Origin: Gemmataceae bacterium
GTDB lineage: Bacteria; Planctomycetota; Planctomycetia; Gemmatales; Gemmataceae
Assembly (NCBI GenBank): GCA_009692005.1
Contig: SHZZ01000001.1
Coordinates: 124,001 to 188,000, forward strand
Direction of reading: 5' to 3'
DNA length: 64,000 nt
The number at the start of each line of letters is the position of its first letter. The stretch's first letter is position 1. The position numbers and the translations under genes were made by a program. Below are positions 46,924-56,599 of the stretch, one piece after another. The notes below the pieces were generated by a model, which was given only the letters and a program-made list of their open reading frames with translations, was not told where the DNA came from and made no database searches.

Positions 46924-47808
46924 CTATTTCCACCTTTTGTTTAGGTCGGAGTAATAGTCGATCCTGCGGTCGCGGAAAAAGGGCCAGTTCCTACGGGTCT
47001 CATCCATGGCTTGGCGGGAACAAGGGGCGACAAGGATTTCCTCGTTCTGATGGTTGGCATGGGACAGGTAATTGCCAAAGGGCCCCAAGATGTGGGAGTT
47101 GCCCCAAAATTCCAGCCCTTCTTGCGGGGGATTAGCCTCAAAGCCAACCCGGTTAACCGCAGCGACAGGGATTCCATTGGCGATGGAATGAGCTCGATGC
47201 ATGGTAAGCCAGGCCTCGGTTTGCATTTTTCCAAAGGCTTCCTTTTCCTTGGGGTGCCAACCGATGGCGGTGGGATAAAACAAAATCTCTGCGCCTTGCA
47301 AGGCGGTTAACCTGGCGCCCTCAGGAAACCATTGATCCCAACAGATGAGCACGCCAATTTTGGCGAATGGGGTGGGAAAAACCTTGAACCCCAAATCACC
47401 CGGGGTGAAATAATATTTTTCAAAGTAGAGGGGGTCGTCCGGGATGTGCATTTTTCTGTAAATCCCAATAAGGTTGCCATCGGGACCAAGGACCACGGCA
47501 GTGTTGTGGAAAACTCCGGGAGCGCGCTTTTCAAAAAGGGAACCGATGACGACCACGGAACATTTTTTGGCCACGGCCCCAAGAGCGTCAGTTGTGGGCC
47601 CTGGGATCGATTCAGCAAGTTCGAATAGGTCCGGATCTTGGACCTGGCAAAAATAGGGAGTTAAAAACAATTCTTGCAGGCAAATAATTTGCGCTCCGCG
47701 ACGTGCCGCTTCTTCAATTCCTTCGAGGTGCTTTTTCAAGTTGAGCCGAGAATCTGGGCTGCTTCGCAGTTGCAATAATCCAATTTGAAACTGGTCTTGG
47801 TTTGCCAT
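46924..47808 (-). CDS. aguB: Carbon-nitrogen hydrolase, N-carbamoylputrescine amidase-like
   Basis: 294 residues. The nitrilase-superfamily Glu-Lys-Cys triad is visible: Glu in ICLQELFLTPYFC near residue 45, Lys in GIYRKMHIPDDPLYFEKYYF near 120 and Cys in IGVLICWDQWFPEGARL near 155. FTPGDLGFKVF and RVGFE further match AguB, which makes putrescine from N-carbamoylputrescine. The agmatine deiminase usually paired with it is not in the window. The product is cytoplasmic. Confidence 0.88.
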   Translation of the reverse strand: MANQDQFQIGLLQLRSSPDSRLNLKKHLEGIEEAARRGAQIICLQELFLTPYFCQVQDPDLFELAESIPGPTTDALGAVAKKCSVVVIGSLFEKRAPGVFHNTAVVLGPDGNLIGIYRKMHIPDDPLYFEKYYFTPGDLGFKVFPTPFAKIGVLICWDQWFPEGARLTALQGAEILFYPTAIGWHPKEKEAFGKMQTEAWLTMHRAHSIANGIPVAAVNRVGFEANPPQEGLEFWGNSHILGPFGNYLSHANHQNEEILVAPCSRQAMDETRRNWPFFRDRRIDYYSDLNKRWK

Positions 47809-47905
47809 GAATTTTCCCTGCCGTGGTGGAACCGAATTTTGTAAGCTTATCTTGGCTGTAACCAGGCTAGGTTATTATGGAAAGCGGACCCTTGGTGGAA
47901 AACCC

Positions 47906-48670
47906 ATGGAGAATCAAAAACTCCAAGATCGCGAGTTGCTGGCCCGCCATATTGTTGCCTTGCAAGCGGCCGGCATAGATTGGCTGCCCAAGCTTTTACC
48001 TCTTCTTGCCGGGAAAAAGCAAATCAAAATGGAAGTGAACGACGAAGTGAAAAAGGAATGCCAGTTGCCAAATAATGCCCCTGCGAATTCCCTTTCTGAA
48101 AGAACCCAGGCATTAACCTTGCTTAAAGATGAGGTGAGCGGCTGCTCATTATGCAAGCCCTTGGCCCTTTCGCGAACGCAAACGGTTTTCGGCATTGGCA
48201 AGCTGGACCCGGAGATTTGCTTTGTTGGGGAAGCTCCCGGCGCGACGGAAGATTTGAAGGGGGAGCCTTTTATTGGCGACGCCGGACAATTATTCGACAA
48301 AATTATTCTCGCCTGCGGGTTGAAGCGGGAGGATCTTTACATTTGTAATATTCTTCGCTGCCGTCCGCCAGGCAACCGCATGCCTTTGCCCGATGAGGCG
48401 GCCAACTGCCGGCCCTTTTTGGAAAAGCAGTTGCGCTTGGTCAAACCCCGGGTCATCTGTTGTCTGGGGGCCTGCGCGGCTCAAAACCTGCTGAAATCAA
48501 CAGTTCCCATTGGCATGCTTCGGGGCCAGGTTTTTCAATGGGAGGGCATTCCTGTATTTTGCACTTACCACCCTGCCTATCTGCTGCGGATTCCGCAAAA
48601 AAAACGCGAGGTTTGGGAAGACATGAAGCAAATCCTGGCCTTTTTGGGAAAACCCATTCCCCAGAATTGA
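47906..48670 (+). CDS. Family-4 uracil-DNA glycosylase
   Basis: 254 residues from the ATG at 47906 (GGTGGAA upstream). It removes uracil from DNA. The four Fe-S cluster Cys residues are in SGCSLCKPLALSRTQTVFG and CNILRCRPPGNR...ANCRPFL. Active-site motifs are VGEAPGATEDLKGEPFIGDAG (residue 95) and CTYHPAYLLR near 215. The first 65 residues form a variable extension. It is divergent from the AguB-like gene and convergent with the pseudokinase gene. Confidence 0.92.
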   Translation: MENQKLQDRELLARHIVALQAAGIDWLPKLLPLLAGKKQIKMEVNDEVKKECQLPNNAPANSLSERTQALTLLKDEVSGCSLCKPLALSRTQTVFGIGKLDPEICFVGEAPGATEDLKGEPFIGDAGQLFDKIILACGLKREDLYICNILRCRPPGNRMPLPDEAANCRPFLEKQLRLVKPRVICCLGACAAQNLLKSTVPIGMLRGQVFQWEGIPVFCTYHPAYLLRIPQKKREVWEDMKQILAFLGKPIPQN

Positions 48671-48681
48671 ACCGGCCTTTC

Positions 48682-50085
48682 CTATCTTTTTGAGGTGGAG
48701 GCAATGGATTGGTAGATAGTGGAAAAGTCCTGGGGTGGCGGTAGGATTACTGTTCCCGAACGGGAGGGCAAATCCACCTTCCCTACTTTTATAGGTAATA
48801 ACACCACATTTAATTTGTGCCTGCGCATCTCTGAATCGTTGATCAGGCGCATGTATTCTGGCCGGATCACACTGGCGGATTCCAGTTCCACCAGAAGGTG
48901 GTCGAATTCTTTTTTGGCGTAGGAATCAACCGCATTGCGAAATTCATCGGAAACCAAAACCCGGTATCCCCGGTTTTGAAAATAGGACTTCAGCAATATT
49001 TTTTTTCGTTCATTAATCGCCACGATGAATACGGTTGGTTTGTCTTTCCCCGCAGTGATTTCCGGAAAGGAAACGCCGAGGTTGTTGCGTACGACCTGGA
49101 TGACCGCTTGTACCTGGATGAAATTTTGATAGCGGGATTTTGCCTCAAGGGAAAGCATATTTTTGACCAGGGGCAGCACAGGGTCGGGAATGGTTTTTTC
49201 GATTTCGGCATTAAAAGTGAAGCGGAAACTGCCGCTGCGGTACATATTTCCCCGGGTGTCGCTGGATTCGGGTAAAGGGGAATGCCCGGTAAGTAATTGG
49301 TAAAAAACGCATCCGGTAAAGAAAATGTCGGAAGCGGGGTCCCCCGGCTTTGCCTTGGTAATCATTTCCAAGCCTTCGTAATCGTCGCTTCTGGTCCAGG
49401 ATTGGGTGTCGATTGCTGTAGCTTTGAAATCAGAGCCTTGGCGGAAATTGGAAACCCGAATGTTGTTGGTGGAATCCAGAAGAATTCTTTCCGGCTTGAT
49501 ATTTCCATGGCTGAAACCATTCTTGTTGGCATAAGCAAGCGCCTGGGTAATCTGCTCCAGGATTTTTAAGGCCTCCATACAAGTGACAGAACTACGGTGC
49601 TCCAGCCATTCCCTTAAACATCCTCCCTGAATCCATTCGGAAAGAACCCAGGGCGGGGAATTATGGTCCCCGGAAAAATGGTCGAGGATTTTTACAATTT
49701 TAGGGTGGTCCAATTGCAACCCGATTTGGGCTTGCCGATTGAATTGGCTGTGAAAGGACTTTTTATCTTGAAAGCGTTTTTTTAAAACTTTCAACGCCAC
49801 CAAGCTGCCAGTTCCTTTAACCCGGGCTTTGTAGGTGCGCCCAAGGGAACCCGATGCAATGGGTTCCAAAAGGTCTAGGTTGGCGAAGGTGAGGGCTTCT
49901 ATTTCATGACGAATGATTTTTTGCAATTGCCAATCGGTGAGAAAGCCCTCGACAACTAAAATGGTTGGGTCGATGGCCTCGGTTTGTTTTTCCAGTGAGT
50001 CTAAAAACTCGTGGCCCGATTCCTTGGGAAGCAATCCCAATCGGGTTGTCATATGAATCAATCCGGAGAATTCTTCAAAATCCAT
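48682..50085 (-). CDS. Pseudokinase fused to receiver-like domain
   Basis: 467 residues. Residues 70-330 have a PKN-type Ser/Thr kinase fold: a Gly-rich loop (IASGSLGRTYKARV), beta-3 Lys (LVALKVLKKRF), and SDIFFTGCVFYQLLTGHSP in the C-lobe. Catalytic residues are lost: helix-C Glu is Gln (FNRQAQ), H-R-D is HGN (FSHGNIKPERILLD) and D-F-G is SNF (RVSNFRQ). Residues 345-450 resemble a CheY-like receiver (TVFIVAINERKKILLKSYFQ), but the acidic pair and the phosphorylated Asp are replaced (VAINE; LLVELES). It probably acts by binding, not phosphotransfer. It is convergent with the UDG gene and divergent from the HEAT lipoprotein gene. Confidence 0.85.
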   Translation of the reverse strand: MDFEEFSGLIHMTTRLGLLPKESGHEFLDSLEKQTEAIDPTILVVEGFLTDWQLQKIIRHEIEALTFANLDLLEPIASGSLGRTYKARVKGTGSLVALKVLKKRFQDKKSFHSQFNRQAQIGLQLDHPKIVKILDHFSGDHNSPPWVLSEWIQGGCLREWLEHRSSVTCMEALKILEQITQALAYANKNGFSHGNIKPERILLDSTNNIRVSNFRQGSDFKATAIDTQSWTRSDDYEGLEMITKAKPGDPASDIFFTGCVFYQLLTGHSPLPESSDTRGNMYRSGSFRFTFNAEIEKTIPDPVLPLVKNMLSLEAKSRYQNFIQVQAVIQVVRNNLGVSFPEITAGKDKPTVFIVAINERKKILLKSYFQNRGYRVLVSDEFRNAVDSYAKKEFDHLLVELESASVIRPEYMRLINDSEMRRHKLNVVLLPIKVGKVDLPSRSGTVILPPPQDFSTIYQSIASTSKR

Positions 50086-50299
50086 GGCGAAATCCTGGAA
50101 GCCAAATCACAGAAGGGGAAAGAATTAGCCCCATGTTAACTTTTTCCCAGGGTAAAGGGAATGGCCAGGGGCAAACTGGGTTGAATGGATGGCGCTTTTT
50201 CCAGTTCCCACGGGGATTTTCCTCTTGCTCATTAACAGGCCTCGCGATATTAATCCCCTGCTTTTTTCGCGATTTCCTTGGCGTAATTGGGTGTCCTAT

Positions 50300-51100
50300 A
50301 TGGGTATGGATCAACTTGGGTTTAATAGATGGAATTTCTGTGCCGTTGGTTTAATGGCGCTCATTTCCTGCAGTGGCTGTTCCCTTTGGGATTCCATAAC
50401 CAGCCGTGATTTTCGCGTGCGCAATCTTTTCAAACCTGAAGACCCGCCCCTGGTGGTTCTGGAAAAAAGCGTCGATGGTGATATGCGCGCGGCTGCCCTG
50501 GCGAAGCTGAAAGAACCCCTTGCCCATGGGGGCACCTCGCAGGAGCAAGAAAAGGTTTTAAAAGTGTTAACCGAAGCGGCCCTCATGGACCGCCAGGCGC
50601 TTTGCCGTTTGCAGGCAATCCAAACCCTGAAGCAATTCAAGGATTCCCGGGTTCCGGGGGTATTGCGCGATGCTTATTACCGAGCCTCCAATTTCAACCC
50701 GGAAACCGGAAATGTAATCAAATGCCAGGCTTTGGAAGCCCTGGGTGAAGCTCGGTCTCCGGATGGCCTGGAGATTCTAATCAAAGTGTTGCGTGAACCG
50801 GCGGTCATTGGTTCGGAACAAGAACGGCAGCAGAAGTTAGATGAACGGATCGTGGCGGCCAAGGCGCTAGGCAAATATAAGGAATACCAGGCAACGGAAA
50901 ACCTCTTGGCACTCTTACAAGCGGACCAGGATGTGGCCCTGAGGAATTGCTGCAGGGATTCCCTGGTGGCGATAACGGGGAAAGAATTACCCGCGGAATA
51001 TAGTTCTTGGGAGGCGTACCTTCACCAGGGAAACCGGCCCCGTGAGGAAAACCCAGGGTTTTTTGGCAAGATCTTGCAAACTGCAGGTTGGAAAAACTAA
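50300..51100 (+). CDS. HEAT-repeat lipoprotein
   Basis: 266 residues from the ATG at 50300; ATG 50306 is possible too. The signal ends in a lipobox-like SCSGC. Residues 65-240 form HEAT/PBS-lyase-type repeats (AAALAKLKEPLAH, LQAIQTLKQFKDSRVPGVLRDAYYR, KCQALEALGEARSPDGLEIL and AKALGKYKEYQATENLLALL). It is probably an envelope scaffold. Its stop codon interlocks with that of the convergent propeller gene (51097-51100). The preceding 214 bases after the divergent kinase gene hold nothing else that I recognise. Confidence 0.82.
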   Translation: MGMDQLGFNRWNFCAVGLMALISCSGCSLWDSITSRDFRVRNLFKPEDPPLVVLEKSVDGDMRAAALAKLKEPLAHGGTSQEQEKVLKVLTEAALMDRQALCRLQAIQTLKQFKDSRVPGVLRDAYYRASNFNPETGNVIKCQALEALGEARSPDGLEILIKVLREPAVIGSEQERQQKLDERIVAAKALGKYKEYQATENLLALLQADQDVALRNCCRDSLVAITGKELPAEYSSWEAYLHQGNRPREENPGFFGKILQTAGWKN

Positions 51101-53520: not shown

Positions 53521-54711
53521 ATGTTTTGTCTAGAAAAAATCCAGCAGGAAATCCAACTAGCCAGACTAGACGGATGGCTTCTGTACGACTTCAGGAATTC
53601 CAACCCTTTGGCCCGGAGGGTGGTTGGCCTTTCGGATGCCCTATTTCTTTCCCGCCGCTGGTTTTATTTCATCCCCGCCCAGGGTGAGCCGATGAAAATT
53701 GTTCACCGCATAGAACCGCACTCCCTGGCGGGATTGCCTGGAAGGGAATTGGTGTACCTGACCTGGCAGGAGTTGGAGCAATCGGTTGCAGCGGCTTTGG
53801 CCAGCGCCAAGGCAATAGCCATGGAATATTCGCCTGGAAACGCCATTCCTTACTTGTCGCGGGTGGATGCAGGAACCCTGGAAATGGTGAGAAAAACCGG
53901 TGTTGCCGTGGTTTCCTCGGGAGACCTGAGTCAGGTTTTTGAATCGTGCCTGTCCCAAGAACAATGGAGTTTGCACTTGGAGGCTGCTCGTCATACGGCA
54001 ACGGCCTATGATGTGGTTTTTGCCGCCATCGCTTCGGCTATTCGCGGGAAAAGGGAGATGCGCGAAAGCATGGTGATTCAAATGATCCTGGACCATTTCA
54101 AAAAGAACGGCCTGGTGACCGATCACCCGCCCATCTGCGGGGTTGGCCCGCACAGTGGCGATCCCCATTATTCCACCTCGCCGGCAACCGACAGCCCAAT
54201 CCGGGAAGGCGATTTTATCCTCGTGGACCTGTGGGGAAAAATGGCCCATCCTCAAGGGATTTACAGCGATCTCACCTGGACGGGTTTTGCTGGGAAGAAA
54301 GCGCCAAACCATCTAAATACTGTTTTTCAAATCGTGGCCAAGGCCCGGGATTCAGCCATTCAAAAAGTCCGGGATGCCTTTGCTTCTGGAATTCCTTTGG
54401 AGGGTTGGGAAGTGGACAAGGCAGCCCGCAGGGTGATTACTGATTGTGGATATGGCCCAGCCTTTTGCCATCGGACCGGGCATTCAATTGGAAAAGAAAC
54501 CCATGGCAATGGGGCTAACATGGATGGTTTGGAGACACAAGATACTCGCAAAGTTCTTCCTTCCAGCCTGTTTTCGGTTGAGCCTGGGATTTATTTGCCC
54601 GAGTTTGGAGTTCGCTCGGAAGTGAATGTTTTTGTCCATCCCGATTCGAAGGTAGAAGTCACGGGGCCCGCGCCCCAAGCGAATATTGTTCCCATTCTGG
54701 CCAAATACTAG
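53521..54711 (+). CDS. M24-family Xaa-Pro peptidase
   Basis: 396 residues from the ATG at 53521, with GGGAGG upstream. The N-terminal creatinase-like domain (residues 1-140) is followed by the pita-bread fold. Metal ligands are Asp in FILVDLWGKM and YSDLTWTGF, His in CHRTGHSIGKETHG, and Glu in FSVEPGIYLPEF and RSEVNVFV. This fits prolidase/aminopeptidase P enzymes that cleave at proline. Its last 53 bases overlap the 3' end of the convergent ABC protein gene. Confidence 0.92.
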   Translation: MFCLEKIQQEIQLARLDGWLLYDFRNSNPLARRVVGLSDALFLSRRWFYFIPAQGEPMKIVHRIEPHSLAGLPGRELVYLTWQELEQSVAAALASAKAIAMEYSPGNAIPYLSRVDAGTLEMVRKTGVAVVSSGDLSQVFESCLSQEQWSLHLEAARHTATAYDVVFAAIASAIRGKREMRESMVIQMILDHFKKNGLVTDHPPICGVGPHSGDPHYSTSPATDSPIREGDFILVDLWGKMAHPQGIYSDLTWTGFAGKKAPNHLNTVFQIVAKARDSAIQKVRDAFASGIPLEGWEVDKAARRVITDCGYGPAFCHRTGHSIGKETHGNGANMDGLETQDTRKVLPSSLFSVEPGIYLPEFGVRSEVNVFVHPDSKVEVTGPAPQANIVPILAKY

Positions 54712-56599
54712 GTGGGGGATTGGCAGCCAGGAAATGAAAATACCCCTGGTAGGTTTGGTTTGTTTGCAAAAGGGTTTGGTGGGTTCCTTCAGCGACGAGT
54801 TGGCCTTGGTGAAAAAAGGCGATCCATCCTGCCTTTTCCAGCATCTTTGGCCTGCCGGATTCAATGAGGGTTACAGTTTCCCTGCTGACAAGTTGCAAGG
54901 CATCCTGGAGCAAATCTTCTTCAAATGTTGAAAGAGTTACATCGGGATCCTTGGCCAGAATTATTTTCTTCCCTTGCAGGATAACCCGACCGAGTCCTAG
55001 TAAAAAAGCCGCTGCTGGCTTTAGGGTTCCCTTGGAAAGTAATGTGGCATAACTCTTTGGCAGCAGGCCAACCTGCTTGTGCAACTTTATTTCACGGGCG
55101 GTATTCAAGACCTGGTGGAGGTCATAATAAAGGTTTCCCCCTGTGAGGTTTTCCAGAACGCTACCAGGGAGCAACCCGCCATCTTGGGTAACCATGCCAA
55201 TGTTGGCCGCCAAATCTTTGGGCGGAATTCTCCTCAAGTTGACTTGATCCAATCGGATTTCGCCCTGGGAAGGGTGAGATTTTCCCGCAAGTGTCAGGGC
55301 CAGCAGGGGGAAGGCTTCCTGGGCAAGACCGCAAAAAACTGTGACTCGATTTTTAGGAAGCACCAGGCTAAAGGGTTCAATTAAAAGCTTTCCACCGGGC
55401 AGGATAAGCGAGAATTGATCCAGGTGAAGGGTGGAAAAGGCTGGGAAGGAAACCAGGTCGTTTTCCTGGCTTTCCCGCAGGGGCAGCTCCCCCGGGGAAT
55501 TTAACAAAAGGCCAACGGCAGCAACCCCTTTTTCAATTTCTTTAATGGAGTGAGCCCAATAGGCCCCAGAAATGACGCCACCCGCGAGGAGGAGAAGGAA
55601 ACAGGAAAAATGTTCGAAGGCGAAAAATGTACTTGGGGAATACCTTGAGAAGTGGATTAAGGCGGCGCCCGTCGCCGCAAATCCTGACACGAGCAAGAGT
55701 TTTTTTTTCGGCCCGAAAAGGTTTTGAGAAAAAGCGAACCCTGTCAGGTAGCTTTTTACTTCGCGGTTCCAAAGGGAAATCGACCCAGATAGTTCTGCAA
55801 AGACGGCGCCTTTTTCCAATTGCAACGCCCGATTGTGTTCTTGACTAGTTCTATTCGACCAGGCAGTTGACCCTTGAATCCAGTTGGTGAAGGCAAATCC
55901 CAGTCCTAAAAATCCCAGGGCCATTAGCGTCAATGATGGAAATGTAATGATCCCGGTTAGAAAAATGAGGATGAAATAAAGCCCCGAGGTTTGATTTGCT
56001 CCCAAGTATTGAAAACCACCCTGGGCCACTTTCTCGAGCAATGCCAGCGGATTTTCCTGTTTTTGCCCTGAGGGTAGGTGGGGAAACAATTTTAGTTTTG
56101 AAAAATGCAAAGCGCCTGTTTGCCTTGCTGTTCCAAGGGCAAGTTGCCAGCTTACTTTTTGAATAACCCAGCCGGCGGCAATTAACAGCAGAAGAAACGA
56201 GAAAACCCCTGCAGCCAGGAAACCCAGGGAATCTTTATTTCCCTTTCCCCAGGGCCCGGTGCTTTTTTCGAGATTTGCCAGCATTTCATACAAAGGGGCA
56301 AGCGGCGATTGTCCCAAACTGGCTAACCCAAAAAGAAGTTCCACACCGGTTGGCTCCTTGGGCAAATTCCCGGATTCTGAAAAAAAAAGAATTAATTGGG
56401 AACCGTCAACGCTGGTTGCTAGAGGCCCGGGGATAATCACGGTTAAATTAAAAATTGCCCAAGAAGCCACGAGGAGAGCGAATGCGGAGATATAGGCTGC
56501 CAAGGAGGCAAGGAAGAGGCCAGCTCGGAGGGAATTGGTTTTCCATCCAATGCGAAATGACCTGAAAAAGAATATTCGTCCGGTATTAGTTGGAGGCAT
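54659..56599 (-). CDS. ABC-transporter-like membrane protein with dead ATPase domain
   Basis: 646 residues. The N-terminal 370 have about six membrane helices in the manner of an ABC exporter. The C-terminal nucleotide-binding domain keeps length and layout: FSLVLPKNRVTVFCGLAQEA, GEIRLDQVNLRRIPPKDLAANIGMVTQDGGLLPGSVLENL and QGQLVAEGTHQTLL. The catalytic motifs are gone. Walker A (G-x-x-G-x-G-K-S/T) is GLAQEAFP, the signature L-S-G-G-Q is LKPAA, Walker B D-E is replaced in IILAKDPDVT, and the switch His is absent in TLIESGRP. The Q-loop remains. It follows an ABC-2 permease gene in the same direction. Confidence 0.85.
   Translation of the reverse strand: MPPTNTGRIFFFRSFRIGWKTNSLRAGLFLASLAAYISAFALLVASWAIFNLTVIIPGPLATSVDGSQLILFFSESGNLPKEPTGVELLFGLASLGQSPLAPLYEMLANLEKSTGPWGKGNKDSLGFLAAGVFSFLLLLIAAGWVIQKVSWQLALGTARQTGALHFSKLKLFPHLPSGQKQENPLALLEKVAQGGFQYLGANQTSGLYFILIFLTGIITFPSLTLMALGFLGLGFAFTNWIQGSTAWSNRTSQEHNRALQLEKGAVFAELSGSISLWNREVKSYLTGFAFSQNLFGPKKKLLLVSGFAATGAALIHFSRYSPSTFFAFEHFSCFLLLLAGGVISGAYWAHSIKEIEKGVAAVGLLLNSPGELPLRESQENDLVSFPAFSTLHLDQFSLILPGGKLLIEPFSLVLPKNRVTVFCGLAQEAFPLLALTLAGKSHPSQGEIRLDQVNLRRIPPKDLAANIGMVTQDGGLLPGSVLENLTGGNLYYDLHQVLNTAREIKLHKQVGLLPKSYATLLSKGTLKPAAAFLLGLGRVILQGKKIILAKDPDVTLSTFEEDLLQDALQLVSRETVTLIESGRPKMLEKAGWIAFFHQGQLVAEGTHQTLLQTNQTYQGYFHFLAANPPPSIWPEWEQYSLGARAP

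Follow-up and report, generated by a model that had tools for sequence, protein, structure and literature searches.

Kinase-like proteins count as pseudokinases by sequence when the kinase fold has lost at least one of the β3 lysine, the HRD aspartate and the DFG aspartate, a trio (K-D-D) that is needed in full for an active Ser/Thr kinase. Several families with degraded motifs in an otherwise folded kinase domain (ActPs1–3, GLW, CP1, DYD and DLHK) are described in a review (PMC12599244), whose text names neither Planctomycetes nor receivers. As characterized there, GLW proteins have GLW for HRD and a bulky residue for the β3 lysine; DYD proteins have arginine for that lysine and a DYD motif; DLHK proteins keep the HRD aspartate and the loop asparagine and have a degraded ATP motif; CP1 is linked to a COG3899 domain; and ActPs3 (MviN) combines degradation of all three motifs with an activation-loop deletion. 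The same source gives EssB/YukC and MviN as precedents for scaffold pseudokinases, and reports that ULK4 uses several basic residues to bind ATP in a metal-free manner, a mode also suggested there for DLHK proteins. Receivers have an analogous term, pseudo-receiver, for domains without any one or more of the acidic pair (DD), the phospho-aspartate (D), T and K (PMC12632262). For Planctomycetota, a kinase survey sorts and counts kinase domains by the presence of K-D-D sites, and the words ‘receiver’ and ‘pseudokinase’ are absent from its text (PMC11032199).

Here we report that freshwater planctomycetes retain a dead form of a kinase that is intact in nearly all of their planctomycete relatives. 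Its gene (48682–50085, minus strand, ATG start) lies in a 64,000-nucleotide stretch of a Gemmataceae genome, which we call the window, and encodes a 467-residue fusion of a pseudokinase and a pseudo-receiver. An AF2 model of the whole protein, built with 50 orthologs as input, comprises N-terminal helices, a kinase domain and an α/β domain (residues 351–466). The N-terminal segment (residues 1–65; 49891–50085, minus strand) contains helices at 6–15, 21–33, 41–45 and 51–58 and carries, before the kinase, a conserved LT-x2-Q-x2-K motif in which T50 and Q53 are invariant or almost so across the family alignment. Pfam Pkinase covers residues 73–320 (E = 3e-34; 119 bits against a curated cut-off of 31.7) of the pseudokinase domain (residues 69–335; 49081–49881, minus strand), and Foldseek matches the domain to PknB (3oro; E = 1.3e-18, probability 1.00), as expected of a Hanks kinase fold. 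PknB kinase domains are the top Foldseek matches of the whole model, and those of PknB and StkP are the nearest solved relatives. Although alike in kinase fold and sequence, the window protein differs from these Ser/Thr kinases in having no PASTA part, lost catalytic residues and an added CheY-like domain; it reaches 127.9 bits against the PASTA kinase model (PknB_PASTA_kin, NF033483) through its kinase part alone, and membership is defined by a full-length match above 450 bits with PASTA repeats. The C-terminal domain (residues 349–467; 48685–49041, minus strand) is CheY-like when modelled alone (348–467), and nearly all top Foldseek matches of that model are receiver domains, the CikA pseudo-receiver 5jyu among them. 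A search with a profile of the family C-termini gives its best match with PleD (E = 2.1e-10) and also recovers CheY-like proteins, and Pfam Response_reg matches 24 of 34 family members but not the window protein. The modelling proposed with an original prediction made from the sequence recovered both a kinase fold (mean pLDDT 89.8) and a CheY-like fold (93.8). Scanning the region for promoters turned up no sigma-70-like site, a result that carries little weight in this phylum.

The original prediction had read the helix-C glutamate as glutamine, HRD as HGN and DFG as SNF, with the Gly-rich loop and the β3 lysine kept. Alignment to orthologs bears out every motif call apart from one register. 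The Gly-rich loop ASGSLG (77–82; 49840–49857, minus strand) is retained, and K99 (49789–49791, minus strand) is kept in all family members. The helix-C position is Q118 (49732–49734, minus strand), with glutamate in 100% of the outgroup and glutamine in 7/7 of the clade that the window protein forms with a sister genus, g20. The catalytic loop reads HGNIKPER (193–200; 49486–49509, minus strand) instead of HRDxKxxN, so that H193, G194 and N195 replace HRD and R200 takes the place of the loop asparagine; R194, D195 and N200 are each present in 100% of the outgroup, and the clade has G, N and R/K. The DFG motif is likewise lost, but S212 precedes the motif and was counted one residue early: the replacing residues are NFR (213–215; 49441–49449, minus strand), where D213 and G215 each stand in 100% of the outgroup and N and R in 7/7 of the clade. 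K99 is thus the sole survivor of K-D-D, because D195 and D213 are both asparagine in all clade members, and a kinase fold minus the HRD and DFG aspartates is a pseudokinase by sequence. Residues that hold the fold together are retained (H193, F214, S252–D253 and R318), and the activation segment has no deletion relative to the family. Most pocket changes shift the charge towards positive (E118Q, D195N, D213N, N200R/K and G215R), an effect countered by R194G and, within g20, by K197S; the β2 V84 position is threonine or leucine in the dead clade, which could weaken adenine packing.

Among about 26 kinase genes of its own genome, a number that excludes one copy split over two frames, the window gene is the sole readable one with asparagine for the catalytic aspartate and NFR for DFG. 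A Pkinase gene at G000:C54:10722–11481 in this genome (L194/L195) lies in two adjacent pieces in different frames, reflecting a frameshift or an assembly error. An active copy that might compensate was ruled out: a search of the genome at E 1e-40 gave no close active paralog, and the match that follows (4e-27) is a kinase-only protein.

These features separate the window protein from five of the named families, going by their descriptions in the review (PMC12599244). It has HGN and K99, unlike GLW proteins; K99 and NFR, unlike DYD proteins; D195N and N200R with K99 kept, unlike DLHK proteins; 467 residues with no further domain in a Pfam scan, unlike CP1; and K99 together with an activation segment undeleted relative to the family, unlike ActPs3 (MviN). 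According to the same descriptions, ActPs3, GLW, CP1, DYD and DLHK come from other phyla and have other motifs and fusions. Searches of open-licence literature on pseudokinases with Planctomycetes, receiver or pseudo-receiver yielded no description of the window protein, and a known named family was ruled out on this ground.

The receiver half is also altered. As the original prediction had stated, the acidic pair (A356–I357; 49015–49020, minus strand) and the phospho-aspartate (E400; 48886–48888, minus strand) are replaced; the conserved threonine is I432 and, by alignment, the conserved lysine is P450 (48736–48738, minus strand), so every catalytic position is substituted in a domain that has the receiver fold. 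The window receiver therefore resembles other aspartate-less receivers (PMC12632262; the CikA pseudo-receiver 5jyu), but differs from them in being fused to a Ser/Thr pseudokinase. In other Gemmatales, one acidic residue (E356) is present in 43/44 and the phospho-aspartate in 42/44, whereas the clade has A, I or M at the former position and glutamate at the latter (7/7), an Asp-to-Glu change that is specific to the dead clade and found in all its members. Outside Gemmatales, the aspartate position is frequently S, N, M or another residue. Because the acidic pair, phospho-aspartate and lysine occur together in 0 of 58 outgroup orthologs, all 58 are pseudo-receivers under the published definition (PMC12632262). 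Given that these orthologs with intact kinases also have pseudo-receivers, the alignments indicate that receiver decay predates kinase loss and that the two losses were not one event. The proposal that joint loss of both centres points to a scaffold or a nucleotide sensor thus survives in part: both centres are dead by sequence and the protein is maintained, which makes such a non-catalytic role the best reading, but the losses were not simultaneous.

We searched for orthologs in 59 genomes and, separately, in all 95 genomes examined of the same family. There was one ortholog-level match per genome, spanning residues ~10–430 and well apart from kinase-only paralogs; the relatives are Gemmatales and, more distantly, Pirellulales and other Planctomycetia, and the orthologs are single-copy throughout Planctomycetia. 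In a first alignment, E118, R194, D195, K197, N200, D213 and G215 are each invariant in the 58 outgroup orthologs. A further set of named loci, which overlaps the first in part, has K, E, HRD, N and DFG or DYG in 57/58 (DYG in two of the 57), and the exception, L083, belongs to g20, the sister genus with dead copies. Dead motifs are confined to the window and to g20, where each of the seven species examined carries them (one of the seven copies is cut at a contig end), and the g20 proteins share 39–41% identity with the window protein. Q118, G194, N195, N213 and R215 are shared by every member of both genera, whose proteins are ~40% identical, and are absent from the outgroup orthologs, which is more than chance would give. 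The window and g20 form one clade (support 100/99), with one change sufficient to account for the dead label in 100% of 200 bootstrap trees. Kinase loss was therefore single and derived, in the common ancestor of two sister Gemmataceae genera. The original prediction had held that intact orthologs would count against a pseudokinase and had asked for the altered residues to be compared among orthologs. The 58 intact outgroup orthologs do exist, and they reveal a derived loss without overturning the pseudokinase, whose five shared substitutions are found throughout the two genera and not beyond them.

Intact orthologs such as those of Limnoglobus roseus (L088) and Rhodopirellula sp. JC639 (L120) have the same length, domain order and N-terminal motif, and both tree and synteny mark them as orthologs. 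They have E, HRD, N and DFG or DYG, and the Gemmatales ones mostly retain the receiver aspartate; the window protein keeps neither. In genus g23 (Gemmataceae), G012, G022 and others, incomplete genomes included, give no ortholog-level match, and a few Gemmataceae lineages may have lost the protein entirely. An intact planctomycete-type ortholog (L125) lies on a 3320-base contig titled Nitrosomonadaceae, and this short contig is probably a binning contaminant. Spread by plasmids was ruled out, as a plasmid search returned distant kinases only, three of them annotated as PASTA kinases.

Gene order tells the same story of descent. In the clade, the kinase gene lies between a divergent HEAT-repeat lipoprotein-like gene (50189–51100, plus strand; Pfam HEAT_2, 1.5e-10) and a convergent uracil-DNA glycosylase gene (47807–48670, plus strand; Pfam UDG, 1.9e-37), within a longer conserved block. 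Both are ancestral neighbours by synteny, the latter supporting orthology, and both also flank intact kinases in other Gemmatales (for example, L088, L094 and L066). Because these neighbours are shared, the dead and intact proteins are the same gene, and this common order in several Gemmatales, together with the single clade, rules out a dead duplicate of other kinases.

In the same syntenic block, the window encodes an MsbA/ABCB-like exporter half (54659–56599, minus strand; TIGR02204, E = 7.7e-23) that has lost Walker A (GLAQEAFPL), the signature (LKPAA) and Walker B (IILAKDPD) relative to solved ABCB proteins. The g20 protein at this position is without Walker A (GLQKEQRTA) and keeps a partial Walker B (LILEEPH); a search of 40 other genomes with a cut-off of E 1e-25 gave no relative.

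The HEAT gene also bears on what the protein might do. The original prediction had noted its divergence and proposed an envelope-linked partner. The two genes do lie side by side in divergent orientation throughout the clade, and also in several outgroups, but this arrangement does not point to a partner specific to the dead kinase, because the HEAT gene also adjoins intact kinases in several Gemmatales and the pairing is thus older than kinase loss. An envelope role was set aside for these reasons. The conserved adjacency would nonetheless suit a protein that serves purely as a scaffold, without binding nucleotide, and possibly holds an envelope complex with the lipoprotein, as would the statement in the review that bacterial pseudokinases degraded in all three motifs are nearly always without ATP binding (PMC12599244). 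We consider such a scaffold unlikely: the adjacency predates the loss, a lipoprotein would be extracytoplasmic whereas the window protein has no hydrophobic N-terminal segment, and the retained K99 would be unexplained if nothing were bound.

We also considered whether the gene is simply a remnant in slow decay towards loss, its motif changes being neutral. The dead-clade stem is long (~2.2 changes per column, measured through the midpoint root; longest other tip, 1.07), several Gemmataceae genomes are without an ortholog-level match, and between window and g20 the kinase has the lowest identity in the syntenic block (40% against 49–82% for its neighbours). However, frames are open in all eight dead-kinase genomes, the dead motifs are identical across both genera, and the kinase fold is predicted at high confidence. 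Moreover, pairwise dN/dS (NG86) over the whole gene is about 0.07–0.16 within g20, where selection was measured, and is similarly low in the kinase and receiver parts; this largely refutes the remnant reading for g20 and makes it very unlikely overall. The window genus is represented by one genome, and synonymous sites between window and g20 are mostly saturated, so that constraint may have been relaxed along the window lineage itself. The low identity of the kinase within its block and the saturated sites, together with low dN/dS within g20, indicate fast change after the loss followed by constraint. Pseudogenization or assembly error was ruled out, because eight assemblies share the dead motifs and open frames, with g20 dN/dS as above. 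The dead product is maintained. Constraint also extends to the dead pocket, because its substitutions are more uniform than those elsewhere: among 55 outgroup-conserved sites at which the clade has changed (7 active-site, 48 other), 5/7 active-site positions are uniform in the clade compared with 5/48 others (Fisher p 0.0013, a modest test given effectively two independent lineages and site classes picked by the author).

A constrained pocket raises the question of remaining chemistry. Some so-called pseudokinases, such as CASK, turned out to be weakly active, and K99 is retained here, but residual or metal-independent protein kinase activity is scarcely credible given that the catalytic aspartate, both metal ligands and the helix-C glutamate are jointly replaced in all members. 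A different ATP-dependent activity taken on by the fold, as in AMPylation by SelO or glutamylation by SidJ, has precedents in the review (PMC12599244) and would fit the kept K99 and Gly-rich loop and the constrained, altered pocket. It is nevertheless highly improbable, as both metal-binding positions (N200 and D213) and the catalytic aspartate are replaced, and the SelO and SidJ table entries in that source retain a DFG-type aspartate (PMC12599244).

It is plausible, by analogy with ULK4, that nucleotide binds here without metal, because K99 and the Gly-rich loop are kept, E118Q, D195N and D213N neutralize acids, and N200R/K and G215R add bases. The likeness to ULK4, basic residues in a pocket without metal ligands, is one of sequence and serves as a lead, with no membership claimed. 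We hold a fuller version to be rather doubtful: a lineage-specific pseudokinase family in which the pocket (three acids lost, two conserved basics gained) would be a metal-independent nucleotide sensor and the aspartate-less receiver would pass its state on, the neighbouring ABC exporter of the clade having likewise lost ATPase motifs.

We favour, with reasonable though far from complete confidence, a lineage-specific pseudokinase that lost phosphotransfer once and whose product was kept, most likely as a soluble non-catalytic adaptor. This reading builds on the observed loss of motifs and its single origin, on orthology and open frames, on purifying selection within g20 and on predicted folds that are intact, from which we infer that activity is absent and that the role is that of an adaptor. 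The ancestor would have been an apparently active Hanks-type Ser/Thr kinase that ended in a pseudo-receiver and was encoded by an old, single-copy gene of Planctomycetia; phosphotransfer would have been lost once, in the common ancestor of the two Gemmataceae genera, and the product retained. The kinase fold, N-terminal helices and pseudo-receiver may then offer surfaces on which the ancestral kinase's partners or clients bind, and the binding of a ligand or partner, in place of phosphorylation, may set the conformation; more tentatively, the pocket may still bind nucleotide without Mg2+. An adaptor that retains its ancestral partners is the simplest account. Because the catalytic machinery was lost yet the dead protein was kept, the data suggest that it now works by binding and not by catalysis.

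Pseudokinases are often hard to compare with an active ancestor. Here, the dead form stands beside dozens of intact single-copy orthologs, partly syntenic, in one bacterial order, and because selection has kept it, what a kinase still does without phosphotransfer becomes testable. Given the fusion with an aspartate-less receiver, both halves of this signalling protein must function without phosphorylation.
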